Assembly (NCBI RefSeq): GCF_021134715.1
Contig: NC_060021.1
Span: 7,224,501 to 7,288,500, forward strand
DNA: 64,000 nucleotides
DNA from: Daphnia pulex
Lineage: Eukaryota > Arthropoda > Branchiopoda > Diplostraca > Daphniidae
Reading direction: 5' to 3'
The notes beneath the pieces were generated by a model. It had not been told where the DNA came from, ran no database searches, and saw nothing but the letters and a program-made list of their open reading frames with translations. Positions 5,816 to 58,740 of this stretch are shown piece by piece. A program made the position numbers and the translations under genes. How positions within the stretch are numbered: position 1 is the stretch's first letter; each line of letters opens with the position of its first letter.

Positions 5816-7321
5816 ATGAGTTTGAGGACACCAACAGTTTTCCATGTTATATCTTCTTTCAGGGTTACTGGGAAACGAAGTAAATCAAGCCTAAAAGCGA
5901 CCAAACCCTTCTTAGCAAAGTCCACTGTCACTAATCAGTTACGTCAACCATCAAGGAATATTTGTAACATCAAAATCATGGACAACCTCATTTCCTTAGT
6001 AAACAGAAAAATGAATTTCCTACATGTGGCATGTTCTAGATCTTATTTCTTAATAAATTTCTTTAATGTGAACTTCCTATAGATTCCCAACTTAAAATTA
6101 AGCCATGTCCATGTTAAGGATTGGCAAAATGTTGGGGACAAAATTAACAAACTGATAGCTGGAACCCATGATAAATTGCAAGTGAGACCCAAACCCAGTA
6201 ACTGAATCATAAAAAATAGTGTGAAAAATCTAACTATTTTTTTTTATCCTACGAGGTAATTGCTGATTTTGACTTCACTTTGACCAAATTCCATGTAGAT
6301 GGAGTAAGGAAGTTATCTTGTCATGGTAAGGGACATAACATTAAATGATTAAACTGAGATAAAACCTTGAAAATTTACTTGCTTTCTCAATTTAAGGTGT
6401 TGTTGAAAATTACTCAAAACTGCCTGACCATTACAAACTTAAAAGCAAAGAAATGTTTAACAAGTACTGTTTCATTTTTTAAGCAATCATACCTATAGTT
6501 ATAAAGTCATTATAATAATGAATATTTTCTCTAATCAGGTACTACCCAATTGAAATAGACCAACATATGTCAGTGGAAGAGAAGATTCCTCTAATGATTG
6601 AATGGTATGATGGTGCTCATGAACTGCTGGAGCATAGCAATTTGTATAAACATGATTTTGCTTTAATGGTCAAAGAAAATCCAATAGAGTTCAGGTACCA
6701 GCAATATTCTTAAAAATCTAGTGAATGTAAATTGAAATCCCTTTACAAATTGTTTACTCACATAAAGGGATGGAACATTGCAGTTTATGAAAGACTTGAA
6801 GGCAGCAAACATTCCTATTCTAGTGTTTTCAGCTGGTGTAGGAGATGTCATTGATGAAGCTTTACTTGCCAACAATCTCACACAGGATAATGTGAAAGTG
6901 ATTTCAAACTACATGACCTATAATACTGAAGGGAAATTAGTTGCATTCACTGACAAATTGATTCATATGTACAACAAAAATGAGACATCAATTCCCCATT
7001 CGTCCACCTACTTCCAAGATTTATCACATCGCCATAATGTGATATTACTGGGTGACTCGCTTGGCGACCTTCAAATGTCAAAAGGTGTCGAACCGCCAAG
7101 CACCGTTCTAACCATCGGATTTCTCAACGATAAGGTTTTACTTTAGTCCAACTACCTACAGTTTTCTATACAGTAAATAACCAAGTCCTTTGTTGCATTA
7201 AACCTAGATTGAAGAACGTTTGGAGAAGTACAAGGGAGAGTTTGACATCGTTTTAGTCGATGACCAATCCATGGACATCCCAGATGCGATTCTTAAATCT
7301 GTACTAGCTAACGAATCTTAA
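5816..7321 (+). CDS. NT5C3: Cytosolic 5'-nucleotidase III (NT5C3-type, HAD superfamily)
   Basis: Exons are 5816-5998, 6083-6181, 6256-6325, 6397-6463, 6539-6694, 6768-7134 and 7208-7321, all in phase. The HAD motif I is VIADFDFTLT (DxDxT), motif II is FSAGVGD, and the acidic motif is LLGDSLGDLQM. The blocks YYPIEIDQHMS and VISNYM are family hallmarks. Enzymes of this family dephosphorylate pyrimidine 5'-monophosphates, and the arthropod members also act on 7-methyl-GMP from cap breakdown. There are two start choices. The ATG at 5978 gives 297 residues, matching human NT5C3B. The in-frame ATG at 5816 adds 54 residues that are basic and almost free of acidic residues, possibly a targeting sequence. 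Confidence 0.92.
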
Positions 7322-16802: not shown

Positions 16803-17579
16803 TTAATAAGCGAGTCCGTGATGGCCGTAGCCGTGTCCGTGACCGTGGGCGTGTCCGTGGGCGTGTCCGTGTCCATGGCTGTTTGATCCGTGGCTCACGA
16901 CTTTGTTAATCGCGGTGTAACCGGAACTGCCGTGGTTGTGTCCGTAGTTGGATCCATAGCCGGCCCCGTATCCAGCTCCATATCCTGTCACATCACATAA
17001 GAAAAATTATTAGCACATAAGACACAAGTAATAGTAATAAAAATTGTGTTATTCCTTGCCTCCGTATCCGCCGTATCCGCCGAGACCTCCATATCCGGCG
17101 CCATAACCCAAACCGTGACCATAAGCTGATTCGACACAAGAGATTCTTACGTTAAGTAATGAGTCATTTTAAAGGCTAAATAAGGAATTGTCGTACCACC
17201 ATAACCAGCAGCTCCAGCATAACCGTATCCTAGACCAGCGCCGTACAGTCCGTTGCCGTAACCGAGTCCGCCATAACCCAGTCCAGCACCATAACCGAGT
17301 CCAGCACCATAACCAAGTCCAGCACCGTAACCGAGTCCAGCACCGTAAGCTCCGTACGCTCCGAGTGTTCCCTCGGCCGTTTGGAGATCCTTGCTGCTGT
17401 CAGAGTCGGCGCTGGCCACCGCTTGTTCCTCGACGGCCTGTTGCTCCTTTTGCTCTTCGGCGGCCAAGGCGACGGCGACGAAGGCAACGGCAAACAAAAC
17501 CTTAAAAATGTCAGGTGATCATTAATTAGTTTGATTTTTTTTTTAATGATTTAAGTCAACTTACCTTGAAGGCAATCAT
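16803..17579 (-). CDS. Secreted Gly/Tyr/His-rich structural protein, copy A1
   Basis: Exons are 17565-17579 (MIAFK), 17197-17500, 17060-17125 and 16803-16984, in phase, giving 188 residues. A signal peptide (VLFAVAFVAVALAA) is followed by an acidic Glu/Gln/Ser-rich spacer (about residues 20-55), a GAGLGYG repeat block (four copies), and a C-terminal His/Gly region with GHGHAHGHAHGHGHG, ending HHGLAY. The third intron starts with GC, not GT (exon ...GGAG|GCAAGG). If it is not removed, the frame ends after GGKE. The same arrangement is present in A2 and A3. Composition suggests a cuticle or other extracellular matrix protein; the His tail could bind metal. Specific function is unknown. Confidence 0.8.
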
Positions 17580-17660
17580 TTTGTTAGTTACAGGAGATAT
17601 TAGTTGTACTGAACACTTGAGTCTTCAAGTCGAGTATGATTTTCCTCCTAATTTGCGCGG

Positions 17661-21737: not shown

Positions 21738-21872
21738 TTCTGACATTAAAACAAAATCCGAACCAATGGATTTTTAAAAAATAAAATAGAATCTCGATGA
21801 AAATGGTTGGCGTGAAATGCGATAAGCGGAATTAATGGGACCGGTGTCAATTAATCGAAATGCGGATGGGAA

Positions 21873-22488
21873 TTAATAAGCAGCGATGCCTCCAACTCCA
21901 CCAAGGGCATGGCCAGCGCTTCCAGAGTGATGTCCACCGGATCCTGAGTTGTGGCTTTGATGGCTGATCACTTTGTTGAAACTCTCGTAATTGGAGTGGC
22001 CCTGGTTGTGGCCGTGGTTCGATCCGTACGCGTTTTTATGGTTAGCGCCGTAACCGGCTCCGATTCCGCCGTAAGCTCCAATTCCGCCGTAAGGCACCAC
22101 TCCAGCTCCGTAGTGACCGGCTCCATATGCTCCGACTCCGCCGTATCCCCCAAGGCCTCCATAACCCCCGTAGCCTCCGTATGCACCAGGATAAGATCCA
22201 ATTCCGCCATGGGCCAGGCCATTGCCGTAGCCGAGCCCATGGCCGTAGAGGCCGTGGCCGAATTGGCCGGCGCCGTAGAGTCCGTTGCCTAATCCGTAGC
22301 CGCCAATGTGCGTCTCTTCCGTCTTCAAGTCCTTTGCGGCCTCCTGTTGCTGCTCCTCTTCCGCCGAACTGACGGCAACTGCCACACAAACGAGGGCCAA
22401 GAAAACCTGCTGACCAATTGCAATTGGGTTATTTTGGGGCATTCACAATTAATCGGAAGCTGATTAACTTTACCTTAAATGCGATCAT
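21873..22488 (-). CDS. Secreted Gly/Tyr-rich structural protein, copy B1
   Basis: Two exons, 22474-22488 (MIAFK) and 21873-22406, give 182 residues. A signal peptide (VFLALVCVAVAVSS) is followed by an acidic Glu/Gln segment (AEEEQQQEAAKDLKTEE), then a long Gly/Tyr region of GYGG, GLGYG and GAYGG units (about residues 40-135). The C-terminal region has YGSNHGHNQGHSNYESFNKV and SGGHHSGSAGHALGG. The first exon, the acidic spacer and the NKVxSH block are shared with the A genes, so A and B are diverged members of one family. B1 has an extra five-residue IGAYG-type unit compared with B2. It is likely an extracellular or cuticular protein; role otherwise unknown. Confidence 0.8.
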
Positions 22489-22572
22489 TTTCAAAATTGA
22501 AGTTTGGAGGGAACTGCTGGGCTGTTGAATGTCCAAGTGAGGATCTGATGGATTCCTTCCACTTCATGTCCG

Positions 22573-22579
22573 TTTTATA
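22573..22579 (-). promoter_or_regulatory. TATA box of B1
   Basis: TATAAAA on the minus strand lies about 85 bases upstream of the B1 start, inside the inverted-duplicate block and identical in B2. Confidence 0.65.
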
Positions 22580-22752
22580 CTTAGGCCTAGAAATGAGAAA
22601 GTCGCCATTAGAGTGTCAAGTGCCATTTCTTTTGACTTCGAGGAAATGAATGCGAACAATTTGATCTGAATGATCTGAGAAGTGAAGGGCAATGTCACCA
22701 ACACATTTTGGGGGAAATATGTTTCGGCGGACCAGAAAGAGTTTCGGACCAT

Positions 22753-23541
22753 AAAACATTTAAAATCTTTTCTTGTTGGGAATCGATCCGTTAAAGAGCC
22801 ACGCCTGGTCCTTTCTCATTAATTTTGCCGTCGTCATCGTTTAGAGAAAGTTGATCAAACAGAATCAAAAATTTGAATTTTGCATTCCACGGTTGTTCAA
22901 GGCCAAACTGGTCATTATCGTATTTTTCTGGGTCAATTCCCGTCAACCAGTAAAAGTTTTTATGATAAAACAAAAGTTAAGTCATAGTATTTTCAAGACC
23001 AAATGAATATGATGTTCGTATTTTTTTTCTTCTAACCAAAAATGAACAAATTTGTTTCGCTAAATTTGTCTCTCAAGTTACACATGGATGAACTGGTTTT
23101 TTTTATTTTTTTAAACTGGGCAATTATGTAACAAATCCTAATAGGCTACTATAGGAAAATTAATGTTGCGTGCGCTTATTAGGTCGCCAATAATTTTTCA
23201 GTCCAAATATTTGTCGAGTTCGTTCATGCTGACCAGCCATGCAGTTTATTATGCACAATTAAACTAAAGCTAATACAGCGTATAAGAATCACCATGGAGC
23301 TTTTTCACATATTGTTAACGTCGTAATTTTTCAGAGTTTTGGTTTTAATATCGCTCTTCAATATCCCCGTATTTTCAAAAAATTTACCAAATTCACTTAT
23401 TTAGAGCAGCAGTAAAATTATACAAGACACGTATGTATGCTTCAATACTATGTATATTTGCGGCTAATAAATTCCAAACAGCTCTGGTTGACAGGTAAAT
23501 ATTATCATAGAGATTTATAGACTCAATTGAATCTGAGGATG
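22753..23541. other. Intergenic, no gene supported
   Basis: AT-rich spacer between B1 and A2 with no supported coding frame. Confidence 0.4.
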
Positions 23542-24258
23542 TTAATAGGCGAGTCCGTGGTGACCGTAGCCGTGTCCGTGGGCGTGTCCGTGGGCGTGTC
23601 CGTGTCCATGGCTGTTTGATCCGTGGCTCACGACTTTTTTGATGGCGGTGTAACCGGAACTGCCGTGATTGTGTCCGTAGTTGGATCCATAGCCGGCCCC
23701 GTATCCAGCTCCATATCCTGTCACATCACATAAGACAAATTATTAGCACATAAGACACAAGTAATAGTAATAAAAATTGTGTTATTCCTTGCCTCCGTAT
23801 CCGCCGTATCCGCCGAGACCTCCATATCCGGCGCCATAACCCAAACCGAGACCATAACCTGATTGGAAACAAGAGATTCTTACGTTAAGTAATGTGTCAT
23901 TTTAAAGGCTAAATAAGGAATTGTCGTACCGCCATAACCAGCACCAGCTCCATAACCGTATCCTAGGCCAGCGCCGTACAGTCCGTTGCCGTAGCCGAGT
24001 CCAGCACCGTAACCGAGTCCAGCACCGTAAGCTCCGTACGCTCCGAGTGTTCCCTCGGCCGTTTGGAGATCCTTGCTGCTGTCAGAGTCGGTGCTGGCCA
24101 CCGCTTGTTCCTCGACGGCCTGTTGCTCCTTTTGCTCTTCGGCAGCCAAGGCGACGGCGACGAAAGCAACGGCAAACAAAACCTTAAAAATGTCAGGTGA
24201 TCATTAATTAGTTTGATTTTTTTTATGATTTAAGTCAACTTACCTTGAAGGCAATCAT
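23542..24258 (-). CDS. Secreted Gly/Tyr/His-rich structural protein, copy A2
   Basis: Exons are 24244-24258, 23930-24182, 23793-23858 and 23542-23717, giving 169 residues. It has the same plan as A1: signal peptide, acidic spacer, GAGLGYG block (only two copies here), then a His/Gly tail ending HHGLAY. The tail is one GH unit shorter than in A1 and has IKKV in place of INKV. The third intron again begins with GC. Nucleotide identity to A1 extends through introns and about 170 bp of promoter, so A1 and A2 are a very recent pair or are being homogenised. Confidence 0.8.
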
Positions 24259-24339
24259 TTTGTTAGTTAGAGGAGATATTAGTTGTACTGGACACTTGAG
24301 ACTTCAAGTCGAGTATGATTTTCCTCCTAATTTTCGCGG

Positions 24340-32567: not shown

Positions 32568-32648
32568 CGCTAAGTTTCAGATCACAAATCATACTCGACT
32601 TGAAGACTCAAGTGTCCAGTACATCTAATATCACCTCTAACTAACAAA

Positions 32649-33405
32649 ATGATTGCCTTCAAGGTAAGTCGACTTCAATCATAAATAATTAACAAAAATT
32701 AAATTAAACTCCTGTCATCTGAAATGGGCAGGTTTTGTTTGCCGTCGCCTTCGTCGCCGTCGCCTTTGCCGCTGAAGAGCAAAAGGAGCAACAAGCCGTC
32801 GAGGAACAAGCGGTGGCCAGCACCGACTCTGACAGCAGCAAGGATCTCCAAACGGCCGAGGGAACACTAGGAGCGTACGGAGCTTATGGTGCTGGACTCG
32901 GTTACGGTGCTGGACTCGGTTACGGTGCTGGACTCGGTTATGGCGGACTCGGCTACGGCAACGGACTGTACGGCGCTGGTCTAGGATACGGTTATGGAGC
33001 TGGTGCTGGCTATGGCGGTACAACAATTCCTTATTTAGTCTTTAAATGACTCATTACTTAACGTAAGAATCTCTTGTGCCCAATCAGGTTATGGTCTCGG
33101 TTTGGGTTATGGCGCCGGATATGGAGGTCTCGGCGGATACGGCGGATACGGAGGCAAGGAATAACACAATTTTTAGTTATTGCTACTTGTGTCTTATGTG
33201 CTAATAATTTGTCTTATGTGATGTGACAGGATATGGAGCTGGATACGGGGCCGGCTATGGATCCAACTACGGACACAATCACGGCAGTTCCGGTTACACC
33301 GCGATTAACAAAGTCGTGAGCCACGGATCAAACAGCCATGGACACGGACACGCCCACGGACACGCCCACGGACTCGGATACGGCCATCACGGACTCGCCT
33401 ATTAA
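32649..33405 (+). CDS. Secreted Gly/Tyr/His-rich structural protein, copy A3
   Basis: Exons are 32649-32663, 32732-33017, 33088-33153 and 33230-33405, giving 180 residues. It has the same domain order as A1 and A2, on the opposite strand: signal peptide, acidic spacer, GAGLGYG block (three copies), His/Gly tail ending HHGLAY. The third intron starts with GC at 33154-33155, as in the other copies. The His tail has one GLG replacing GHG. Together with B2 it forms the right arm of the inverted duplication. Confidence 0.8.
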
Positions 33406-34681
33406 CACCCAAAGATTTCAATTGCGTTTATAAATCTTTACGATAATATTTACCTTTCATCCATGGGTGTTCTAAATTTAATAGCCACGATACAAATACA
33501 TAATAGCTAAACGAAACATCTAGAATTTTATTACTGTGTCTTATTGCAGAATTTGTTATCGCGGGTATTTTCAAACACTTTATAAATTTTACGTTTATCA
33601 AATGGCAAAAATAAAAAAGGCATGGTAATTTGCTTATGCGCTTTAATAGAATAATACAGGGACCAGTATAATGCGCAACTTTATTCGGTGTGTTGGAAAT
33701 TTGCATTTCTGTGAATATCACTACTGATTACTGCGATTAAAGAATAATATGCATAGCGAAAGCCTAATTACATATTTGCATTTATAATAGCTAAACCAGA
33801 CGTACCGTACCCCAGATTTGCTCCACATTCTTATGTTGTACGTACTGTAGTCCCCTTTATTCCGCCCTCCACGTCCTGTGTTGAATGACGTACACCTCTA
33901 TTCTTATTCCAACTTTTCACGTCTTGCCAACTCATGCCCTATGGGCTGGTTAGATTTCAATATTCAACACCACTACAATATAATAAGCTTTCCTGGAAAT
34001 CAGAATGACAATTCTCAGTTTTACTGACTTTGAATTCAAAATAATTGTTCGCGTTCGCGCTTCGAAAACTAGTTATTATTGGAGAAACTCGTGAAAATGA
34101 ATGTCATTACACAAACTTTGTTTCCGTTGAAACAACTGTCCAACTGCCTTGTTCACAAATTAGTCATCGCACGTTTATTTGTGAATGAGAATTCTGAAAA
34201 CAGCCCAAGCAGGACTTTGAAAAAATTCCTGCGCATTCATCGGCAGCAAGCAAAGCAGGAAATTAACTGATTACGATTATTCGTTCGCGTGTGATCGGTA
34301 TAGTCGAAAAAGTAGTCTAGAAAACGGTGCCTAAAAATAATTCGATCAAGCGCAAAAACTCGTTTGGTTTTACTTCTGATGGAGCACCTTATCTAAAGTA
34401 GCAAGAGTTGGCACACACACAAAAAAGGCTATTCGAAACAACGCGATAATGACCAAATTGGCCTTGAACAACGGAGCCCTGGAATGCAGAACGAAAAAAA
34501 ATGTCGATTTTCTTTTCTTCACAACTTTCTCTAAAAGGTGATGCAAACGAAATAAGAAAAGAAAGAACCTGATAGGGACCGGCAGGCGTGGGGGCCGCAC
34601 CTTAACGGGCCAATTCCTATCAATAAAAGGAACTAAAAGCTTTGCGAATTGTTGGGGTTTAAGATTGTCAGTTTGTAAAGG
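33406..34681. other. Intergenic, no gene supported
   Basis: No coding series between A3 and the B2 duplicate block. A 63-codon frame at 34079-34270 lacks any recognisable feature. Confidence 0.4.
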
Positions 34682-34858
34682 GTTCGAAACTTTCTCACGT
34701 CCGCCGAAACATATTTCCCCCAAAATGTGTTGGTGACATTGCCCTTCACTTCTCAGATCATTCAGATCAAATTGTTCGCATTCATTTCCTCGAAGTCAAA
34801 AGAAATGGCACTTGACACTCTAATGGCGACTTTCTGATTTCTCATTTCTAGGCCTAAG

Positions 34859-34865
34859 TATAAAA
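34859..34865 (+). promoter_or_regulatory. TATA box of B2
   Basis: TATAAAA lies 85 bases upstream of the B2 start, identical in context to B1. Confidence 0.65.
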
Positions 34866-34949
34866 CGGACATGAAGTGGTAGGAATCCATCAGATCCTCA
34901 CTTGGACATTCAACAGCCCAGCAGTTCCCTCCAAACTTCAATTTTGAAA

Positions 34950-35550
34950 ATGATCGCATTTAAGGTAAAGTTAATCAGCTTCCAATTATTGGCGGATGTC
35001 CCAAAATAACCCAACGATTGCAATTGGTCAGCAGGTTTTCCTGGCCCTCGTTTGTGTGGCAGTTTCCGTCAGTTCGGCGGAAGAAGAGCAGCAACAAGAG
35101 GCCGCAAAGGACTTGAAGACGGAAGAGACGCACATTGGCGGCTACGGATTAGGCAACGGACTCTACGGCGCCGGCCAATTCGGCCACGGCCTCTACGGTC
35201 ACGGGCTCGGCTACGGGAACGGCCTGGTCCATGGCGGAATTGGATCTTATCCTGGTGCATACGGAGGCTACGGGGGTTATGGAGGCCTTGGGGGATACGG
35301 CGGAGTCGGAGCATATGGAGCCGGTCACTACGGAGCTGGAGTGGTGCCTTACGGCGGAATCGGAGCCGGTTACGGCGCTAACCATAAAAACGCGTACGGA
35401 TCGAACCACGGCCACAACCAGGGCCACTCCAATTACGAAAGTTTCAACAAAGTGATCAGCCATCAAAGCCACAACTCAGGATCCGGTGGACATCACTCTG
35501 GAAGCGCTGGTCATGCCCTTGGTGGAGTCGGAGGCATCGCTGCTTATTAA
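34950..35550 (+). CDS. Secreted Gly/Tyr-rich structural protein, copy B2
   Basis: Two exons, 34950-34964 (MIAFK) and 35035-35550, give 176 residues. It is nearly identical to B1: signal peptide, acidic AEEEQQQEAAKDLKTEE segment, Gly/Tyr repeats, and the HHSGSAGHALGG end. It differs mainly by lacking a short repeat unit after VVPYGG and by a few substitutions (VSVSS for VAVSS, LVHGG for LAHGG). Only one of many long frames across this locus is real; the Arg-rich and Ala/Val-rich antisense frames are by-products of GGN codons. Confidence 0.8.
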
Positions 35551-35680
35551 TTCCCATCCGTATTTCGATTAATTGACACCGGTCCCATTAATTCCGCTTA
35601 TCGCATTTCACGCCAACCATTTTCATCGAGATTCTATTTTATTTTATAAATCCATTGGTTCGGATTTTGTTTTAATGTCA

Positions 35681-43610: not shown

Positions 43611-45624
43611 TGCATAAACTAAGAATTTAAAGGAATCTGAATATTTTTTAAAAGAACAAAGACTTCAAAAATCACTCTAAATAGTAAATAGGTATCACGT
43701 ATCAATAGACCCAACTGTTTTTTTGTTTTCTTTTTAAACAAGATAGCACATGATTTTGTTTAGCAGACTACGCGCCGCGGATGGGATGCTCAGTCCTCAA
43801 TAGTTTCAAAGCCTGAAGAACCTTTTTTGGCTTGGTCCCAAAAAAAGCGCTAGAGTGTATTTGAGCGCCTCTACCGGCCAGTGTTGCTGTTGTCGTGTTG
43901 TCTGCAAAGACTTAAGTCTTTTAGTCTTTTTGTGATGTATTGGTCGGTCGCATGGTCGGTTTTTCCCGCGCAGAAAATGTTCATCCATGTTCCACATAGC
44001 TGCAGTGCAATCCGGGCAATCCCACACGAAATTTGTAGGTAAGAAATTAACAGGTTATCATGTTTTAAGGTAATTGGTTTGAGCTTTATTAAATACCTGT
44101 GCATGCAAACAACACAAAAGTGCATTTGAAGTTTGAAATTAGTCAATTATGTTTGAACTATCTCTAGAGCTAGTACAGGTTTTGACTCTCAATCTATTTT
44201 TTAAATGTAGCTACTGCATGGATGAGATTTGAGTGACAGAAATGAAAGAGATTTGACATGACATTCAAATTTATATAGATCAAAAGTACAAAACATTAAA
44301 TTGTGACACCAAGGACAGCAGCAAGGCAATCAAGAGTGCTTGAGGCAGGAAATCCAATCTCCAGTCTACATGTTGATCAACACGACCACAATTTCCTTGA
44401 CAAATCTGATGGAATTTGCCCCAGTGCACACAGATTGATCCTTAAATCCAAGTGAGTCTTGAGAGGTAAATCAATTCCTTTTAGTTTCATTTATTAATTA
44501 GTTAAATCTGCTACCTGCTCAGTCTTGTTTCCCCCCTTTCATGAAGGCTTCACCTCTAAGGGCTACGATATGAGCCTTGGTATTTTTTGTCTGGTCGTCC
44601 TGTTGCCATCCATAACTAAATTGGATCTTTCACTGTGATCGGCCACTCGCATGGATTGGTAGTTTTCGATTCGAGTTTGCCACGACTCAGATTCCTTTCT
44701 TTAATTTCCCCTCTCTCCCATAATTATCTTAATAAGGACTGCGTTGCTTCGTATCTGGGCGTAGTAAATAACATGCATTTTGGTGTGTCGATAAGAGCTG
44801 GAAAATGTTTCGGGGTATTAAGTCAAATGAATGCAATGAGAAAACAACCTTACTACTCGGGGTGTCCCAATAATCTCTTAAGTTGTTTCCTTGAATTGGT
44901 ATTATTTGTTAGAAATTCGTAATTCCTTCTGCTTTTAGTAAATGGGCAGAATATTTAACATGGGTTTTGAAGTCCACTTCATTAAAGATTGTTTAGGTTT
45001 CCTTCACCATCGATATGGTTTACGTTAGTTTTAACGTAATAACACGTGTTACGTTAAAGTAAACGTAATATTTCGTTAATAAAGAACGAATAGCATCGAC
45101 TAATGTAACCACTCAAAAGGCGCCTCCAATAGTTCGTCACTTTTTTCTTTGTTTAGTGGTACTACAGTTTACTGGGTGCAAGCGAATAGCTACATATAAA
45201 TTTCAGCGTACACGAAATTCGCCGTAATTTTAATTTAACTTGCAGCACTTTAGTAAGTTACATCACTACAAAATTCTAGTAGTTATTATCAGTAATGAAT
45301 TGTAGTGAATATCCTTTTTGTCAACTAGTAGTTGAATCAGTAAAAATTACGCTTTGGACATACCGGTAACATTGTACTATCTTATTGAATAGTTTGGGTT
45401 TTTTTTTTGTATGACGGTGTTTGAACAGTCGTCGTGACTCATGCAATCTCATGTTTCCGCCGTTCATGTTTCGTAAGCAGTGTTTTATCATTTCTTTTTA
45501 AAGATAGTAGTACATATATAGCCTTTTGCACAATGCCATTCTTTAATATGCTAGCGCTGTTTTTTTTTTACTGTACTTCGCTGTTCGTTTGTGACCGATG
45601 GACATGCATAAATGATTAATCGTT
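43611..45624. other. Intergenic between divergent PARG and ZNFX1
   Basis: 2 kb with no supported gene. The PARG promoter side has a GC-richer stretch near 43770-43900. A long imperfect palindrome lies at about 45018-45070. Confidence 0.4.
45018..45070. repeat. Imperfect palindrome centred on CACGTG
   Basis: Arms TTAACGTAA and TTACGTTAA flank ACACGTGT, and outer TTTACGTTAG/AGTAAACGTAA also pair. The core is an E-box. Position is about 550 bp upstream of ZNFX1. Confidence 0.45.
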
Positions 45625-48600
45625 ATGGCGTATAATAGACCTTTTTCATTTTTACAATACGATCAAGGCAAAGTGTCAGAGGAAACTAGAAAAACTGTTC
45701 CGTTGTTGACGCCAAAACCAGCATCTACTGCAGAGAAAAGTGGTTCAGTTACTGTGTCCAATGCCACTGCTTTTTTCAATAGATCTCAGCAATCAACTGG
45801 TTCATCTATAGACAGCGGGCAACATGGAATCCAACAGGGAGCAGGACGAACAAGGTATTCATCAAGTATATATTCCATGCTGTATTAATAAAATTGGTAT
45901 ACTTTTTTTTCCCATATTAATTAGCCAAGATTTCAAAACAACTAACAGAGTGTTCCCATCCAGCAATAGGGAGCGTAACCAACAAAGTATATTCATTAAG
46001 TTTATTCTAGACTGCTTATTGCAACAGTGTACAGCTACAGAGCATTTTTTTTTCACTTCAACAGTTTTAAACTGGAGGACAACAGGTGGCCCTTCAAGAG
46101 AGGCAAGGTTTGTTTAAATCAATGACATGTTGCTGATAAAAACAAACCAGTAATTTATCAATATTTTATGTAATTAAAGTCCCACTTGGAAAACTAATAA
46201 TCTGGATCAGCAGGGTGCAAAACCAAAGCTACAGAATTTGACTGGACAATTTCCTTCGAGAAAAAGCCATGAGTTGTTAACTGAAAGCAATTCCAAACGG
46301 CAAGAAAATCCTCCCAGTCATAGGAAGAATGCCCTAAACTTTTACGGCGTAAAAAAATTGATAGAAAACGACGCTCAACCCGAAATTATTGCTCGAAAGT
46401 TTGCAGAGGCAGAAACTGGACTGAAGCAGTTTTTAGAAAACAACTCTGCAAATTGGGATGCTGTGGAATTGGTTCTCGTGGTCATTGGCCACTTTTGCGA
46501 GAAGAAAGGAGTGGTGTTGTTTCATAACACTTTTATAAAAATCGTTCAAATTTTAGCCGAAGAGAACGTATTTTCGAATCTAAACAGTGTCATCCTGAGT
46601 ATACCAAAATCTAGATGCACCAATCTTGGTCCAAAAAATGAACGCTTCCGCAAACTTATCAAGAGCCTCACTTACCTGACGACGGAAATGCTGACAGTGA
46701 TGCCAGCGCTCACTTGTGACTATCTAGGAGAGCAATTTGTTGAAGATATCTGCGCTCTTAAAAATATTCCTTCCATCCGGGATACGAATGTTGATGAAGT
46801 TTTTAGCACGTTTCACAAAGAAGGAGCGGAACGCTTGAAGGTCGGTAATATCATTTCTTAACTAAAGTGTATTTAACTATATTTTAAAAATTTCTTGTAA
46901 CATCTAGAATGCATGGGAACAACATTCAAAAGCCAAATCGCTCCTAACAAATGAAAGCCATAGGGATGCGATTCGATTCCAACGGCAGGAGCTGATGATT
47001 CATTTGAAACCGCCAGATGACTTTCGACAACTCAGCGTAATGCCTGATTGGGAAGATGTTTGTGCTGACACCGATCCTTTTCTACGCCCAAACCTCATTA
47101 AAGGAAGCTACCCAGACGTGGACACTTATCTCGATATTCAATTCCGGCTTTTGCGTGAAGATTTCCTAAATCCATTGCGCCAAGGACTTGTAGCCTACAG
47201 AACCAAGACAGAAAAACAGCAAAATCAACACATTCGTGTGGACAACATTAGACTGTATTATGACGTGAAGATCAATGCTGACGTCGAGAACCTAGGTCAA
47301 CAACAATTATACACATTGGAGTTTTCAACCAAAGGATTGCAACGGGTTAACTGGGAAGGCAGCAAACGTTTGATTTATGGATCTTTGCTGCTGTTGTCAG
47401 CTGATAATTTCAACTCTTTCATGCTCTTCACTGTCGTCGACAGAAAACCTGAGCAGCTGTCACGTGGTAGAATTAAAGCTAAATTTGAGGGTGAATCTTT
47501 ACCAGTGTATGCCAGTAAAACAAATTTAGTGATGGCTGAAACATCGGTGTTCTTTGAAGCTTATCGGAGTGTGTTAATTGCACTACAGCGTATTAGTCCA
47601 GCTCACTTTCCCATGCAAGATTATATTCTTTGTCGGAATGTTATGCCAACTGAACCGGAATACCTAAAAAAGATTCCTATCGTAAGTTCTTTATCTTGTA
47701 GGTTCACATTTTCACAATTTTCTTTAGGTAATTTTTTTCTAAACATTTTTTAGCCAATAGTCTACGACTTAACTCCTGTGCGAGTTTCGAACTCGACGAC
47801 TGAAAATGGAAATAATGAAGACGATTCTCGTTATGAAAAAGGTTGTTTTGATATTCGTTATACCCTGACGTATGCAATTATTTGGCCTTTTATTTATTGT
47901 TTCTAGGCAAATTGTTGAACCCCGCGCTACATAGGTTGTTGGCGCAAGTGTCGCTATTCGGTCAAAGTTTGCCTGATAACGAAACTCTCGGACTAGATCC
48001 AAGCCAAGCTGACGCCCTTTATGCCGCTTTAACTAGAAAATTGGTTGTTATTCAAGGACCTCCAGGAACAGGGAAAACTTATTTAGGCCTCAAAATTGTT
48101 CAAACTCTACTGCACAACAAACGGTATTGGGTAGACAAACCCAAGCCTACTCCTATATTAGTGATTTGCTATACGAACCACGCGCTAGATCAGTTCTTAG
48201 AAGGAATCAGTAAGTTTACGAAAAAAATTGTCCGGATTGGTGGTCAGTCTAAATGTGAAGCCCTCCAACCATTTATGCTTATCGAATGGAAAAAACAGGC
48301 TGTTGCTCAAAGAAAAAGACCTCTGCAATACCGTCATTGGTTGGCGGAATCTCGCAGCAATTTGAACGAAACGAAAAGGTTGTTAATTTAACTTTCTATC
48401 ATTTAATTGTTTTTAATTTTCGTCTGTTTCATTTTTTACATTAGTGCATTTGAAAGAATTCAAAAGACGCAACGTATTGTCGAATCTTTCGTCATCATTC
48501 ATGAGAACTCCCTACTCAATCTGAAAGTATTATCGCAGATCGAGTATGTTAAAGTGAGAGCGACGACTACAATTTCAAACAGTTCCGCAATCACTCAGTG

Positions 48601-51600
48601 GCTTGGTGTTCAATCGATTCAAACACTCAAGGAAACCCTGAAGGCTTTAAAGAAAATTTTGCCAAAGACAAAAGCGCCTCCAGTTGCAATTGAAAAGGCT
48701 TTGAAGGATGAAGAACTTGTCGAGGAGGAGTGGGACAAAGAAGATGTCGACGAAATTCAGGGTTAGCATTAAAAAATTTAATCTGAAAACTCAATTTGTT
48801 TTATGTTTTTCTTTCTTTACAGGAGAACGTATGATGGACGAAGAAGTACACGTAAGCCAATCAGATTTCGCCGGGCTGAAAATGAAATCAGAAAAAACAA
48901 TGGAATCAGAAGGAAATATCCAATACGCCTTTTCTACACTGACTCTAAACCAGAAGATAAATTCCTTACAGGAATCCTTACAGGAATTAGAAGGGGATGA
49001 TGTCGAGTTGGTTCAGTTTCACATCGCTGAAATCAAGCTACAAAAAGAGCTCTTTCAAGAGATTCTGAAGATCCTCCCTACTGTAGACAAAACAGATTAC
49101 AAGCAATTGATCGAAAGAGACCTTGCGCGTCTTTCTTTTGTGGATCGATGGAAAATTTACTCCTTCTGGAAAGCCGAAATTTCTGACATGTTGACTGCGG
49201 AAATAAACTTGTTGTATGGGCAATATCAGCAACAAACAAACGAAATGAAAGATGTCGAAACAATTGAAACTGCCGAGATTATTCGTGAAGCCCATGTTGT
49301 CGGAATCACAACTACGGGGGCGGCCAAGAATAGAGCGCTATTGGAACATCTGAAATCAAAAATCGGTACAGTATTTGTCAGACCCTTTTCTACCTATCTT
49401 TATCTATTTACTTATTTTGGTTGCAGTCGTCGTTGAAGAAGCAGCCGAAGTTTTAGAGGCCCATATAGTGACCTCCATGTCTTCTTCTTGCGAACATTTG
49501 ATTTTAATTGGTAAGCATGTCTATTGAAATTCATATGTATGTGACTTTCTGACGATTTCGTGGATTCAGGTGATCATCAACAACTGCGACCTCCAACGAC
49601 GGTGTATAAATTAGCGAAGGATTACCACTTGGATGTTTCACTGTTTGAACGATTGATCATGAACGGAGTTAAGCCAAATGTTTTGGGTGTCCAACACCGA
49701 ATGAGACCGGATGTTGCTCGACTAATCGTCCCATCCATTTACCCCCATTTGGAAAACCACGAGTCTGTGTTGAGGTACTGGGATGTTCCAGGAATGGCGG
49801 AAAGTGTATTTTTCCTGTCTCATTTGGAACGAGAAAAAGGAGACCAATCGGATCAAGAAAGCCGCAGTCATTTGAACCCGTATGAAGCAGACATGGCTTT
49901 GGCTCTAGCTCGCCACCTGTTAATGCAAGGCCTGGAGCCCAGTCAAATCACAATATTGACAACCTATTCCGGCCAGTTGTTGCATTTCAAAAAGTTGCGA
50001 AGAAGTCACGCAATTCTCCAGGGCGTTCGCATCTCAATCGTCGACAATTTTCAAGGAGAAGAAAACGACATCATAATCCTGTCTTTGGTGCGAAGCAACG
50101 ACGAGGCTAAAGTTGGATTTCTAAAGACAGAAAATCGCGTCTGTGTTGCACTTTCTCGAGCCAAGAAAGGATTCTACCTGATTGGCAACATGGGCAATTT
50201 AACAGGGAGCAGTAAACTCTGGCGGGAAGTGAACAAAGTTTTGACGTCGAACGGACAGATAGGGCCTCATTTCGACCTACAATGTGAAGTGCATCATACT
50301 ATCATCAAGGTATTAAAACAAACAAATGTTTTCTGTGTTCAAAATAACAACTACATACACATAATTTTATTATAGGCGAATAAAGTGTCCCATTTTCCGC
50401 CAGAGGGTGGATGTTTCGTCCAGTGCCTCACTCCAATGCCTTGTGGACACATATGCCCCAAAATTTGTAAAATTAAACTAATGTTACTAATGAGATTATA
50501 TAATTCATTGTATTGTTTGTTATTCTAGGCCATGTTGAGGATCGTGAGCACACGCGACAAAAATGTCACGAAGCCTGCTTGCGCTCCTGTTCCGTTGGTC
50601 ATCCTTGCCCCAAAAGATGTTATCAGGATTGCAATCCCTGTTTGACGAGAATTCCCAAAATTCTTTTACCATGCAATCACACTCAAATAACTGAATGTTA
50701 CAAAGACCCGGAGAAGGAATATTGTCTTACAAAAGTTGTTAAGGTATTTTTATTAAATTATTTTTCTCCTTATGAATTTCACAGCCATTCGATTGCTCGA
50801 TAGGCTTTACCAATCTGCAAACACACAATGGAACTAGACTGTGGTAAGTCAGTTGAGGAAATCAAATGTCCGGAACAGTGTGGCATGCATCTAGATTGTG
50901 ATCATATCTGCAATCGAATCTGCCACAAGAGAAGCTCCCACGCCAAAATGCCATGCACCCAACCGTGTCGCCGTTTTACCTGCCCTGAAAAACATCCTTG
51001 TCCAAAGCAATGATATGAGGAATGCGGGAAATGTCTCGTTGATGTAGTCAAGAAACTACCTTGTGGCCATGATGTACGTATTTCGATTAAATTTATCTTA
51101 ATTTACTTTAACGTAACGTTTTTCTTTTATAAGGGGGAAATCAAATGCTGGCAACTTCCTAAAGACGCATACTGTAAAGTGAAGGTCGAGAGAATTCTTT
51201 CCGGCTGCCAACATACGGCCTTTTTCGACTGTAGCCAATCCACTGAAGGTTACAGATGCACTCGTATGTGTGGGAAACTGCTATGTAACGATGGACACAT
51301 TTGCCGAAAGCCTTGCTTTGAACCCTGTGGCCCCTGCAATATTCAAGTGAAGCGCACACTAGTTTGTGGCCATGAAACTCAGACGGCTTGTTACAAGGAT
51401 CCTCTGGCAATCAAATGTAAGTTCCCGAAAGTAGTTACTCTACCCGATTGCGGTCACAAGGTTGAAATCGCTTGTAGCGACAATCCCGAAACAGCCTTCT
51501 GCCCAAAGCCTTGTGACACACGTCTCGATTGTGGGCATCAATGCACGGAATTGTGTCATGTCAAAAGCGATCCTCACCATGAAAAGTATCTTTGCAAGAA

Positions 51601-53939
51601 AGCTTGCAATCGGAATAAAATTGATTGCAAACTGGATCATAAGTGCGGGAAGAAATGTCACGAAGAATGTGATCTATGTATCACGAAGATCAATCGACAA
51701 TTACCTTGTGGACATTCTCAAGTTGCTGAATGCTGTTTAGATGATGAAGACATCAAATGCGGGTAATTGCAGCAGAAAAACTGGTGTCTGAATTTTGGTT
51801 GTTTCTAATTTATGGCTTATTTTCTTTGAAGGGTAATAGTCAACAAAACTATTACTGAGTGTATGCATTCGATTCGTGTCGAGTGTTCCACCATTGCCAG
51901 TCGCCAATTGTGCAATCAGCCATGTGTCAAGTTCATGAGTTGTGGTCATCAATGTAAGATGCAATGCAAAGAGACATGCTCACCATTAGTTTGTCAAGAA
52001 CTTGTACGGACTTCAGTGTTAAGTCCCTGTAGACACCCCGTGATGAAGACTTGCAACGATCATCACTTATGTAACACATTTTTAACTTTACACTTATTCA
52101 GTGACAATTCATTTGATTTACGCTCGTAATTATAGCTCCTGTAGTGGAACAGGCACAGGTGGAGAAATTTCTCCAAGAGTGCCCGCATAAGTGTCGCGCC
52201 AACTTGCCTTGCGAACATTCTTGTAAAGGATCCTGTGGGCAATGTTTCAATGGCCGTCTCCACAAAGCCTGCGAGGAAAAATGTGGACGCACCCTAGTTT
52301 GTGGACATAGGTAATTCAATATCAGCGTTCAATCAGTATTTACTTTCTACGTATGTAACGAATTCTTTTCATTTACAGCTGTGGTGTGAATTGTGCCATT
52401 TCGTGCCCTCCTTGTAAGGAAGTATGCCAATATCGCTGTCGGCACAGCAGATGTCGCAAGAAATGTTGCGAGCCATGCGTCGATTGTGTTGTATGTTTCT
52501 AATCTTTTTGTGTGGTTTTTTATTAGATTTAAAAATTTAATTGTTTTAATTAATAGGAACCTTGTGGTTGGAAATGTGAGCATTACTCATGTTCTCTCAA
52601 ATGCTTTGAATATTGCAATCGACCTCGTTGTGATGAACCCTGTCGGAAACGTCTCCCGTGCGGCCATTCATGCGTTGGACTCTGCGGTGAAATCTGCCCT
52701 CCTCTTTGCCGTGTGTGCCACAAAGACCAGCTGACGGAATTTATTCTCTATGGCAACGAAGAAGAAGACGACGCCAGGTTAAGACTTGTTAAATTGTTTA
52801 ACTGCTTCTTTACTAAATTTGTGTTATTGTTCCTTGTATAAAGATTCATCTACTTGGAAGATTGCCAGCATACTATAGAAGTAGAAGGGATGGATCATTG
52901 GATGGAGATGAAAGAGGAGGAAACTCGTGAAATCCAAATGAAATGCTGCCCGCGCTGTAAAACCATCATCCGCTCATGTTACCGCTACGGCAATGTTATC
53001 AAGAAAAATTTCGAAGACATTGTGGAAGTAAAGAGGATGCTTTTGCGCAACCGTGTTAGTTCCAAGGAGATCATAGAGAAGCTCCTTAATCAAATTAAGG
53101 ATTCCGATGCTCTAAATAGCGAACTTGCTGGTAAACTTAACCATGGCATAACTGAAGTCCTGAAGAATGAACTGAAATGCATACGGGACTTTTTGAATCC
53201 AAACATGGTCGGAAAAAGGCAAAAGTATAAAAGTTTGGATGACGATACTCGCTACATGTTTGAAGTCAAGGTTGATATCATTGCGTCTGTTTTGAGCTCC
53301 ATCAAAAATGCTCCCAAAATTGCTTCATCTGAAAGTCCAATAGCGATTGGAACAATGGACCCTGCTTTGCTAAAAAAATTTCTAGGTCGAGCTCAAAACA
53401 TTGTTATATCGCTCTTTCATCGCGAACGGTTTTCTGTCCAGGAGTATGATTGTTTCATTGCTGAAGTCAACCGTTTGGATTTGATTCGAGTCTATTTCTT
53501 GATAAAGAGTGCCTCTCACATGTCCAACAGAAACTCTTTGATAAGTGAAGAAACCCGACTGGTAGAAGATCTGTTGATGAAGAATACGAAACCACTGAAG
53601 AAACAAGAGAGCGAGACAATCAAAGGCATTTTTCAGAGAATTGGCAAAAAGCTTAATACTGGACTTGGCATCAGCGAAACTGAACGGGAGCAAATTGTTA
53701 AAGCTATGGGATTTAAACAAGGTCATTGGTTTAAATGCCCGAATGGTCATATTTACTTAATTGCTGATTGTGGTGGGGCGATGCATGAAGCCAAATGTAA
53801 CGAATGCGGGGAAAAAATTGGTGGAGGAAACCATTCATTGCGTTCAGACAACAGCCTTGCGAGCGAAATGGATGGGGCTCGATTTGCTGCATGGTCAGAA
53901 CATGCTAATAACATGGGCAATTTTCAAATACTGGATTAA
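45625..53939 (+). CDS. ZNFX1: ZNFX1-like helicase with NFX1 zinc fingers and RZ finger; one in-frame TGA
   Basis: Twenty-one exons join in phase from ATG 45625 to TAA 53937-53939, 2353 residues if the TGA at 51011-51013 (codon 1510) is read through. The domain order is: a low-complexity N-terminus (1-110); the conserved [29 protein letters not shown] block; an SF1 helicase with Walker A GPPGTGKT (about 670-677), DEAD-like EEAAE (about 1067), [20 protein letters not shown] and [13 protein letters not shown] long series of NFX1-type Cys/His fingers (about 1350-1980) follows, then a C-terminal RZ finger ([15 protein letters not shown]...[10 protein letters not shown]). Known homologues are antiviral RNA sensors or germ-granule factors. 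The TGA replaces a zinc-ligand Cys: [12 protein letters not shown] occurs earlier, CPKQ-stop-YEECGKC here. It could be a null allele, a sequencing error or recoding. Confidence 0.9.
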
Positions 53940-55377
53940 CCAGCTTTTTTTCGTTTTCAGTCTTAAACTTTTTATTGTAAAATTGTCGTAGCTGTTTTAA
54001 TTTGGCTTAGATTGATTTAGATGTTATGATTAACGCGGCAGATGTGCTAGATGCCAGATTCCTTTATTTGGAGATGGTTTTCCGTATGTTGTGTTTATAA
54101 AATTGATTAATAATATACTGGGAGATAATTCATTGATAAGTTCTCTTCTTACGTTAGCGCTTGCGCCTAGACTCTTCGTATATCTTTTTTCAATTATTTA
54201 TCCGTACGTAAAAAAATCGTAGAGAAAATTCTCGCTATAATTAATATATTTTTTAAAATTCCTATTAATTATACAGTCATCCGTGAACAATATAAACCTA
54301 CTTATTTGTCTTTGCTCTTACTCCGACTTACGCAATATGAGAAATGCAATAGATTGATAGGCCTATGTAAATAGGCTACCACTTTTAAAAGAATTAATTA
54401 AGTGCTGCGTGGCAGAGTGGGTTAAGGCGTCGTCTTATTAAACGACACTCAACACACATTGTGGGAGTGCTCCACCACTAGGCACTCTTCTCTCCGATCT
54501 CGATATTGGTGTCTTTGTCAGATCCTGAAAAAAATATGGTATACTAACAGACGTTGACTAGAAACAAGCTTTTAAAGATGAAGCATTCTCGTTCCTCGAT
54601 GTAGTCCTAATTTGATTATGGGCTGGTAGTACGTGAGTTCGTGGACAGCTTAGAAGTAATGCCTAGTCAAACCCTGAATTTTTATTTGGTAACTTTGGTA
54701 AAAAGTGAAATCAAACGAAAGAAGACAAGTCAATTTTAACTCAACCTTTTATCGCATTTTATCGAATCAAATTTGGTCGTTATATAGCTTAGAACTCCTC
54801 CCATAAGGAGGCGTAGAAAGGATCGTTGATTGTTGCTTTATTTAACACTGGAATAAGTCGTTCATTTAATCTTTTAGTCGCTATTATTCTGGGCGAAAGA
54901 TTATGGCTTGTCCTAAATGAATATATATATATATTTGACATAATTCTTTTATGAAACTTAAAACGAAATTTGTGACCTTCAAAACCCTTTGGGAGTACAC
55001 CCTCATAACCTCGAAAACTGATCATTATCGATCAATCAAGGTCAATTATTTGGATTTTCCAGATTTTTTAAAGATATTTAAACCCTCGATTCAGTTGACT
55101 TCAATCATTCATTCGATCGCCTTCTATCGAGTCATACGGAGTCATACTACCGTACAACCCTGGTACAGATATAATTGCAACTTGAAATGCTAGAATTTAA
55201 GGTAAGCTATTCTTACACACTTATTGAGACATTTGTTTTTAATTTGAAGACACACGTTCTTTGTTAAATGCTGTATAGATAATCGTCGCTTCTACCCTGC
55301 TGTTGTGTTTGTGCGTTCGGAACTCAGAACTTTCTCCACTCCCCCAGTCATGGAGCGATGTTAGTTCGGCGGGTAAA
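53940..55377. other. 3' flank of ZNFX1 and intergenic DNA
   Basis: ZNFX1 3' UTR and AT-rich DNA. Apart from the tRNA-like sequence at 54402-54485 no gene is supported. Confidence 0.4.
54402..54485 (+). tRNA. Degenerate tRNA-Leu-like sequence (probable pseudogene or SINE head)
   Basis: An A-box-like TGGCAGAGTGGGTTAAGGCG is followed by a 5-bp anticodon-type stem (GTCGT/ACGAC), a variable arm and a T-arm-like GTGGGAG...CTCCAC. The 84-nt length fits class II tRNAs. The ends pair only partly (GTGCT/GGCAC), the anticodon loop has 8 bases, and the B box is poor. Most likely not functional. Confidence 0.35.
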
Positions 55378-55812
55378 ATGAATGATCCAACGGCATTCTT
55401 GATCGAAAACGGCGTTACTCAGGAAGAAATTGAAGAGTTTCAACGTCAAAGTACGAAACTCTTTGTTGTTTTAAAATCCGTTATTTAACCAAGTTTCATT
55501 AATTGTTGCAGGTGGTACTTTGCCTCTAACGGTGGAGAGTCAAGACATGGATGAAAGCCAGAGTCGTAGACTCGTAGCTTTGGAAATATCTTACCAACCT
55601 TACGTAGTTCTAAAGGGATAGCCGCAGCAGCAATCGGAATTGGTGCAGCTGCCAAGTTTTTGATAGTTAGTTCAGCTTTCGATAATTTTCGCAATTGGAT
55701 TCATGATCGTAGACGCCAAACAACCAATATTAAACCTATTCCTGTATACATTGTAAAAAATCCGGCTGAATCACCCAGCCACGTATCACCTCGCCCATCT
55801 TATTTCATGTAA
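55378..55812 (+). CDS. Unrecognised small protein with one hydrophobic helix (needs a micro-intron)
   Basis: Exon 1 is 55378-55450 (MNDPTAFLIENGVTQEEIEEF), joined in phase to 55512 onward (GTLPLTVESQDMDESQS). Read straight on, the frame stops at 55621 (60 residues). The other frame is open to the TAA at 55810-55812 and has a strong helix (IAAAAIGIGAAAKFLIVSS), a basic loop (WIHDRRRQ) and a Pro/Ser tail (SPSHVSPRPSYFM). Removing a 50-nt GT-AG intron at 55566-55615 joins them into 107 residues. It is alternatively a frameshifted gene. I do not recognise the family; a single-pass membrane protein is inferred. Confidence 0.45.
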
Positions 55813-56453
55813 AGCTAAACATGTTTGTAGCACACTGTATATATTCTTTATCCTACACACACACCAGCATTATTTTCCATTAACTTTGATCCACGCCAAG
55901 GCTTACTTGGGTTAATTGAATCACTGATGTTTTGTAGCTTTCTAAATGAAAATCTCACTGAAATCTGTGATAACAATATATTGACCTATCAAAATATTGT
56001 GTGTTCTTAGTTCTTACCATCTCAGATATTCATAATTTCATAGAGAGATTCGTAGTGTCAGAAATATTATTTACAATTTACATTTTACACCACCAGGAGA
56101 AGCAATACATTTTTGGCAACGTTGTATTAAACCATTGTTTACTTAAAAGCCCAAAGCCTAATTAAACTTTCATTCATGTTTCAGCTGCTGATTTCTACGG
56201 TTGTTACCAAGTTTAGGATTTTGTAAGAAATGAGATATCTGCTGATGTCCTTATCCCCACGTGGCGCTGTGCTGTAAGTTTTTTAAATGTATTTGTAAAT
56301 TTCACCGTAAATTTCATGTCACTTGAAATTGAAGTTTGTTTAAATCCCAACTATGGATGCTTTATCATTTGTTGATTCAATTGGTCAGATGATTATCTTA
56401 TGGTTCTTGAGCTTATTGCAATTAGCGTGAAGAAAGAATTTGCTTGAACTAGG

Positions 56454-56534
56454 GCGAAATGATGTCCAATCCAAAATCTTTAGTATTTAAGATGTGAAAA
56501 CCACCTTGCTGTATATCCTTTTTAACTGATCATT
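56454..56534 (+). ncRNA. Candidate C/D box snoRNA 1 (intronic)
   Basis: C box ATGATGT (56459-56465), internal C'-like GATGTGA, D box CTGA (56526-56529). The D box is about 26 nt upstream of the 3' splice site. Guide target not determined. Confidence 0.35.
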
Positions 56535-56663
56535 CTTTGAATGTAAGTATAGGCAGGTATTGGCTCGATTGCTCATGATGTATGTGATTCTAATACAAGT
56601 GGTCAGCAGGCAGCTGTGATGAAACCATAAGTAAGTAATACTCTTTTTCAAATTTATTTTGAT

Positions 56664-56744
56664 GTTATTTGATGAAAACAGGATGGTTCGCTAAATTGGG
56701 TATGAGCAACTTTGATTTCAAAACTCCTCGCAGTCTGAAAACTC
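56664..56744 (+). ncRNA. Candidate C/D box snoRNA 2 (intronic)
   Basis: C box TGATGA (56670-56675) and D box CTGA (56735-56738), with a TATGAGC internal box. Terminal stem is weak. Confidence 0.3.
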
Positions 56745-57158
56745 ATGTCAAGTTACAGTATGTTCAATTACAGTGTTTGAATTGTGCAAATTAATTTAGT
56801 ACCTGTTACTGGATTTAACCAACATGCAGGTCTGGCCGTGATGATTTGATGACAGCTGCATCGCTTAATTTTGTATGTGAGTTGTTTTTTACTTTTTAAT
56901 CTTTTTTTATGAATGAGGACAAGTGAAATATGAGACAATTGAGAAAGTCATTGAATTTATGTAATGAAAGGGATTTCTGGTACTGAGAAGTTGGCAGTAG
57001 TGACATTGTTTTATTGCTCTTGGGTTTGTTGTAATTTTTCGATTTCATTGTAGTCGGTACAGGCTGTTGGTTGGCAATTCTGACGGAAACTATTCGGCAT
57101 TGTGTGGATCGGTGTAGATGGTGAGCATAGATCTTCTGTTATTCTTGTTGAGAAATTT

Positions 57159-57237
57159 CGCAAATGATGTAAATTTCAATTCAATGGTTCCTGCCGAGAA
57201 GTGTACGATATCATGTGGAAATGTTTTTCTGATCGCT
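57159..57237 (+). ncRNA. Candidate C/D box snoRNA 3 (intronic)
   Basis: C box ATGATGT (57164-57170), D box CTGA (57229-57232), about 78 nt upstream of the next exon. Terminal stem not clear. Confidence 0.3.
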
Positions 57238-57438
57238 TAATTCAAGCATGAAATGCTATGAAATGTGGTTTTCAATAGAACTGGATATGTGGTTTTTATC
57301 TTTACCTGTAGGAGTGAACTTACGATTGGGTAACGCAAATGACTTCGAAAGCAGTATTCGCCAACACGAGTTTCAGTCCGTTTCAGTGTTTGTCTGTGAA
57401 TTGTAAGTGATTTGTATTCTCCCTTTTTGAATATTTAT

Positions 57439-57508
57439 ATGCTGTGATGTTTTTAGACATTTGAAACCTGAATATGCTCTGGGTGGAAAACATATTTTAC
57501 TGAGCTCT
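57439..57508 (+). ncRNA. Candidate C/D box snoRNA 4 (intronic)
   Basis: C box GTGATGT (57444-57450), D'-like CCTGA, D box CTGA (57500-57503), about 43 nt upstream of the 3' splice site. Confidence 0.3.
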
Positions 57509-58740
57509 TCATTAGACTTGTTTAATTTGCTTTTTGGTAAAATGCAGTTCTTCAGTTTCTGATTTTAAACGTTAGTTGTGATGCTGGCCTGCCTGGAATT
57601 CATCGAATGTGGCGGAATAACTGGTGGACCTTCGAAGGTGGGCTGTGCGGTCTTTAAAAAAAATCAGGTTAGTTCATTTCATTGTCTGCTCAGCACCTGA
57701 ATTCAATATGTTGTCATTTGCATTTGAATGTCGGATTCTCTTCATGTGCTTACATAATATATCAGGAGACAGACACCTGGGTGGTACTGCTTGAACTGTC
57801 CAGATCGGTTCTTCCTGGACAAATAGAACATAATTGCTAACGTTAGCTATTACCGTTTCTCTGCCAGGATATGTTTGTGCTTTCTGACGCAGCAACAATG
57901 AATACTGTCAATCTAAAATTGGGAGGAATAGCATGTGGAGCATACGTGGTGCTTACTGCCTAGTTGAATTTAAGGCGACGTTCGTCAAACTGGGTATTAT
58001 GTTTTATTTTATTAAATAAATTCTTTTACAAAAAGTTATCTTTTTTGTTTTGCAGGTAATAAAAAAAGCTAATAGATAAATTTGGCGTTTTGCCCAAAAT
58101 GCTCGAGCCAAAAAAGTTAATTGGGTTGTTGTTGGAGATGATAGATATACGGTGAAGAATCTTGTCGATAACAGTCGCATTGGAATCTCGTCATGCGGAT
58201 TAGCCTTTAATGTAAAATTCTTTGCGCGCATCCACAAGACAACTTCAAAAAGCAAGGAAAGTACCATTTACATTCGCTGACCCTGCTGGATATGACCGCA
58301 TTCAACCCTCCAGGATTCAATTACCATCCAGGTCTTTCACTCCTCGTACTTGTCGGTTTTAATTATTCTTCATAGGGCGAACACAGTGAAATGATCCATC
58401 ACTTTGTGTACTTTATTAATTGTCTACTTGTCTGTTGTACTTTAAGAAAATGTACCCGTCGTCTAGTCATCGTATTCGAAATGTGGACCCTGTTTGAAGA
58501 ACAAAAAATTGCTCAACAGCTCACCATCTTCAGCTTCATCTGCATCATCCTCACATCTTTGACAACTTCTAACTTTCTTGCCCAAAAATTGTGGCATAAC
58601 ATCTCCGACATGGCAACAACCAGTTCGCAATTATGGGTAAATAATATTTTTATTAAAGTTTAGTTATGTATCAATCTCACTTTTCTATTTGTTAGAATAC
58701 TAGTTATTAGTTATTATTAATATTGAAACTAACTGTTTAG

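Follow-up and report, generated by a model that had tools for sequence, protein, structure and literature searches.

A recent nonsense allele is the probable origin of an in-frame TGA at a zinc-finger cysteine codon of a duplicated ZNFX1 gene in Daphnia pulex

A ZNFX1-like gene of Daphnia pulex carries a TGA where a zinc-finger cysteine is expected, and the reading frame is open on both sides of it. Is this codon a disabling mutation, an error of the reference, or a codon that the animal bypasses or recodes? The window, that is, the whole stretch of 64,000 nucleotides analyzed here, lies on contig NC_060021.1 (C5:7224501-7288500 in a genome searched over 133,188,837 bases and 13 contigs). The original prediction described 21 exons and about 2350 codons broken once, and left a choice between a very recent change or sequencing error on one side and recoding on the other. 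The single break and the codon count (2353) are reproduced by a joined gene model, which has 20 exons instead of 21. The features of this model that matter below, all on the plus strand, are as follows.

45625 to 53939, plus strand: ZNFX1-like gene, joined model (20 exons, 2353 codons, a single internal stop)
47907 to 50309, plus strand: exons 7-11, superfamily 1 helicase core with an intact GPPGTGKT motif, 5' of the stop (Pfam AAA_11, AAA_12, AAA_19)
50529 to 50743, plus strand: exon 13, with an intact earlier finger
50804 to 51073, plus strand: exon 14, 270 nt, entered and left in frame 0
51011 to 51013, plus strand: TGA in frame (codon 1510), in place of a zinc-finger Cys that the two nearest paralogues have
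53712 to 53855, plus strand: intact RZ-type zinc finger, 3' of the stop (PF20173, E 3.1e-22)

The exon borders were placed by eye in such a way that all 19 introns run from GT to AG. Exons 1-3 are the least certain part of the model because they align poorly with the closest paralogue (30-41% identity). The helicase core is recognized by Pfam (AAA_12 at 1.4e-39, AAA_11 at 7.5e-29), and the NFX1-type finger array is seen as seven H-x-C-x3-X-x3-C sites in the window copy and as a match of the closest paralogue to the fingers of a solved ZNFX1 chain (PDB 9q9z, E 5.6e-11); the Pfam NFX1-finger model itself has no match listed for the window copy at E 0.001. From its sequence the gene is identified as ZNFX1, with a helicase core, NFX1-type fingers and a C-terminal RZ finger, an architecture that agrees with the one given in the available part of a review (PMC11959080). 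Unlike human ZNFX1, for which excerpted source text gives 1918 residues, the Daphnia gene has 2353 codons and a stop inside its finger array.

Elsewhere in the window, Gly/Tyr-rich genes for secreted-looking peptides form inverted pairs 8-16 kb apart (21773-22750 and 34681-35650; also 16803-17642, 23462-24321 and 32586-33486). There are 16 such pairs of inverted arms, 13 of them 91-98% complementary and three 81-88%. To the eye the segment 54405-54480 resembles a tRNA; no tRNA is called anywhere in the window by ARAGORN under bacterial settings.

The reading frame around the stop is HPCPKQ-stop-YEECGKC, and codon 1510 is the sole internal stop among the 2353 codons, with intact splice borders and no second stop or frameshift in the 7062 coding bases. 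An intron or a wrong frame at the TGA was ruled out, as the alignment with the paralogue continues on both sides of the codon. Within the array the stop occupies the second of the seven sites, the only one in the window copy that lacks Cys at the position X; when the seven sites of each of the two nearest paralogues are added, 20 of the 21 carry Cys there and codon 1510 is the exception. The claim that a TGA at 51011-51013 replaces a zinc-finger cysteine is thus confirmed by the joined model together with the paralogues. The intact earlier finger invoked as a local comparison is present in exon 13, and the downstream exons are, as had been said, intact up to and including the RZ finger.

The paralogues, which had no part in the reasoning of the original prediction, supply an ordinary setting for this codon, namely, a duplicated gene with a tract of recent exchange. 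A search of the genome with the helicase exon gave 20 matches, and six regions (L021-L026) were fetched for comparison. The closest paralogue, L021, lies on the same contig, 2.5 Mb away and on the opposite strand; it has TGT (Cys) at the position of the stop, its frame stays open from the exon-4 counterpart through to the end, and its 6784 coding bases show no frameshift. The next-closest copy, L022 on contig C10, also has Cys at this position, as does the ZNFX1 chain 9q9z, which L021 matches. The stop therefore has no counterpart in either near relative and, because all three carry Cys, the TGA base of the window copy is most simply the derived state. Exon 14 differs from that of L021 at 10 of its 270 bases (96% identity), and one of the 10 is the TGA base.

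The remaining copies say little about codon 1510. L023 and L024 stop short of it. The finger arrays of L025 and L026 are 22-30% identical where they span the codon, with gaps or various residues and Cys in one of 10 alignments, and they align too unreliably there to support or contradict Cys. Where L022-L026 were matched by tblastn at more than 33% identity over more than 60 positions (L021 excluded), stops fall at intron gaps or close to match ends, apart from one further stop within a weak cross-finger match of L025; since these copies were judged from such matches and not from full gene models, their intactness is not claimed. The open frames of L021 and L022 and the constraint on them suggest that these two copies function. 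No match to a degenerate DNA pattern spanning codon 1510 turned up in genome_contigs or viral_contigs, as expected of collections that hold bacteria, archaea and viruses.

Two features of the family were seen in passing. An intron within the counterpart of exon 7 in L021 (reverse complement, 3174-3251) is absent from the window copy, which amounts to a gain or loss between the duplicates. L023 and L024, about 21 kb apart on contig C8, are short ZNFX1-like genes, 98.2% identical over 7.5 kb; by eye they hold the helicase and about two fingers, and they have no match past codon 1930, hence none to the RZ region.

The history of the pair formed by the window copy and L021 was read from their silent divergence. 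Ks is 1.04 over codons 130-1040 and 0.95 after codon 2040, which indicates that the duplicate pair is old. Between these flanks it falls to 0.21 (codons 1041-1509) and 0.25 (codons 1511-2040), and this segment contains the TGA of exon 14.

49300 to 53000 (approximate limits), plus strand: segment of low silent divergence from L021, putative gene-conversion tract (Ks, permutation)

Inside the tract 117 of 939 codons with the same amino acid differ silently, compared with 269 of 809 outside, and none of 2000 permutations gave so quiet a run of 300 codons. The introns show a similar unevenness: introns 9, 10, 12, 13, 18 and 19 are 80-98% identical to those of L021 and introns 4-8 are 47-51% identical, with introns 11 and 14-17, which also lie within the tract, at 61-78%. 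A milder dip (Ks 0.34-0.49) occurs in 100-codon windows starting at codons 500-650. The patchy intron identities and this second dip therefore give a mosaic pattern, which is most simply explained if the copies have converted each other repeatedly or in patches; the sharp local drop in silent divergence between old duplicates was recognized in this mosaic form from Ks, the permutations and intron identity. For comparison, gene conversion was not found among Daphnia Dscam exons, according to the available part of PMC3236188.

If the stop abolished the function of the gene, its age should be visible in the sequence that follows it. Within the tract Ka/Ks between the window copy and L021 is 0.065 upstream and 0.171 downstream of the stop, values which indicate purifying selection between both copies. 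When replacements are assigned by means of L022 as the outgroup, codons 130-1509 hold 40 for the window copy and 41 for L021, and codons 1511-2353 hold 35 and 26, respectively (Fisher p 0.40), an assignment that leaves out 244 sites at which L022 matches neither copy (149 upstream, 95 downstream) and 83 sites without outgroup (76 upstream, seven downstream). The Cys and His residues shared by L021 and L022 are kept in the window copy at 111 of 112 downstream positions. After codon 1330, of the 150 Cys and His common to L021 and L022, two are gone from the window copy, C1510 and C2076 (the latter replaced by Ser); all 148 that the window copy has in common with L022 persist in L021. The loss of C2076 and the higher Ka/Ks after the stop hint slightly at a relaxation that predates the stop, or at a weaker constraint on this part in the two copies alike. 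All gaps relative to L021 after codon 150 are whole codons.

Thus, neither a second disablement nor a significant loss of constraint was found downstream, and the stop must be young if it abolished the function of the gene. As the lack of significant relaxation is what a young stop would leave, the locus is described as a recent allele and not as an established pseudogene. Given that no second disablement is present, the stop would be no older than about 0.003-0.005 substitutions per site if the whole gene has been neutral since it arose, and 0.007-0.014 if the downstream part alone has been so; the calculation assumes 0.05-0.15 indels for each substitution, with transitions given a weight of 2. 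Both limits are smaller than the average silent divergence between two D. pulex clones, about 0.057 in the accessible text of PMC5427498, and the stop is therefore probably younger than much of the variation within the species.

We consider it probable, with good though incomplete confidence, that a nonsense mutation really occurred here, and did so recently, turning a Cys codon into a stop in one of the duplicated ZNFX1 genes. Translation would end after 1509 residues, and the product would retain the helicase core with the first fingers but lack the RZ finger and most of the array. The mRNA would probably also be degraded by nonsense-mediated decay, because six more exon junctions lie 3' of the stop in the model. 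We infer the step from the stop to the loss of the protein. The loss would probably be tolerated because a paralogue without stops remains. The allele would be young and may still segregate, and later conversion from the paralogue could either erase it or spread it.

A precedent comes from Drosophila, where, according to the part of PMC4271532 available, premature stops occur in excess among young genes and among the child copies of duplicates. The Daphnia locus resembles these nonsense alleles in having one stop and a paralogue without stops, and differs from those described there in that the paralogue seems to exchange sequence with the stop-bearing copy. Literature searches on Daphnia ZNFX1 or NFX1-type fingers and on premature stops, null alleles, pseudogenes and gene conversion in D. 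pulex returned no title on this locus.

The main rival to a nonsense allele is an error of base calling or assembly, in which the animal carries Cys and a single substitution in the reference is false. A lone substitution in an otherwise intact and constrained gene is exactly the look that an isolated error would have. However, the TGA does not lie in a homopolymer, and local base quality looks good because neither the window copy nor L021 has a frameshift over its coding length. A mix-up between the two copies would moreover have introduced a Cys codon, not a TGA. An error of this kind is therefore held to be unlikely, although it keeps more weight than any of the alternatives that follow.

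The lack of significant relaxation after the stop, which recency would explain, would also be explained if the stop were bypassed and some long protein still made by skipping of exon 14, by in-frame splice sites or by readthrough of the UGA. Exon 14 is among the four exons of 20 with a length divisible by three, and the frame survives its removal, but 90 residues of fingers would be deleted. Other in-frame options are an AG at 51019 or 51052 used with the exon-13 donor, a GT at 50852 used with the exon-15 acceptor, and 10 GT...AG pairs internal to exon 14; GT/AG pairs in this number, counted irrespective of their strength, are expected by chance. As for readthrough, abundant stop-codon readthrough has been reported for D. 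pulex (PMC5100048, available in part), and the locus resembles the functional readthrough described there for Pancrustacea in that coding sequence continues past the TGA. Unlike those cases, what follows the stop is ancestral coding sequence, and the Cys of the two nearest paralogues marks the stop as a new one, not one conserved for readthrough. Nor does the TGA stand in a described leaky context: it is followed by TAT and not by the CUAG of the efficient motif UGA-CUAG (PMC4132726, available in part), a comparison that concerns the sequence motif alone and not structure-driven cases. Readthrough has no positive evidence, and a bypass of any kind appears improbable. A particular version of it, in which the stop is tolerated since the locus makes two products, a helicase-only protein by ordinary termination and a near-full-length one through in-frame exon 14 skipping or readthrough, with conversion from the sister copy keeping the downstream fingers intact, is a little less credible still.

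On a par with that version stands the possibility, which we regard as distinctly doubtful, that the short form is itself useful, a truncated helicase with its first fingers that works and was selected as a specialized copy. The helicase of the window copy is intact, and short forms do seem to exist in this genome. L023 and L024 align with the helicase and the region of the first fingers, each adding two weak cross-finger matches and nothing past codon 1930 in the 9.9 kb fetched; the frame of L023, read by eye, runs through about two fingers into a different end before it stops. However, the undecayed state of the downstream part argues against a long history of the short form, and transcripts that bear the stop would be expected to be targets of decay.

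The last alternative, that the TGA encodes selenocysteine in place of Cys, was part of the choice offered by the original prediction; the opposition of recent change or error to recoding was well drawn, but this half of the recoding option is not supported. The TGA does occupy a Cys position in frame, as in animal selenoproteins such as the glutathione peroxidases of the same genome, where one reading frame contains NVASK-TGA-GK. A search for tRNA-Sec gave 26 matches, two of them above the curated cut-off, a cut-off also passed by five of 14 control genomes; ARAGORN with bacterial settings reports no tRNA at the two best loci, and the candidates stand on their Rfam score alone. Searched over the genome, the SECIS_1 model gave two matches only, both on contig C1 and below the gathering score (133 of 2653 candidates scored), behind genes with the Pfam domain GSHPx.

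4381 to 4446 and 6416 to 6481 of region L029 (contig C1): SECIS-like elements behind two adjacent glutathione peroxidase genes

These control loci score 30.5 and 29.5 bits. With Rfam at E up to 10, five matches were obtained in 45000-58000 and three in 53900-56500, and none was a SECIS in or behind ZNFX1, which bears out the earlier remark that the 3' flank holds no convincing SECIS element. The same model that finds the controls therefore finds nothing here; moreover, the site is a zinc-finger Cys and, we presume, not a redox site, unlike that of glutathione peroxidase, and the two nearest paralogues have Cys. Selenocysteine is accordingly rejected for ZNFX1 as extremely improbable.

Under the preferred reading, a recent nonsense allele, the TGA of the window has no bearing on the genetic code. 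The pair to which it belongs appears to have exchanged sequence after about one silent substitution per site had accumulated at its ends. If the allele is real, D. pulex would carry a natural loss-of-function allele of a helicase of the antiviral or small-RNA type in an animal open to clonal propagation, and this would be a handy natural knock-out, with the sister copy without stops as its comparison.
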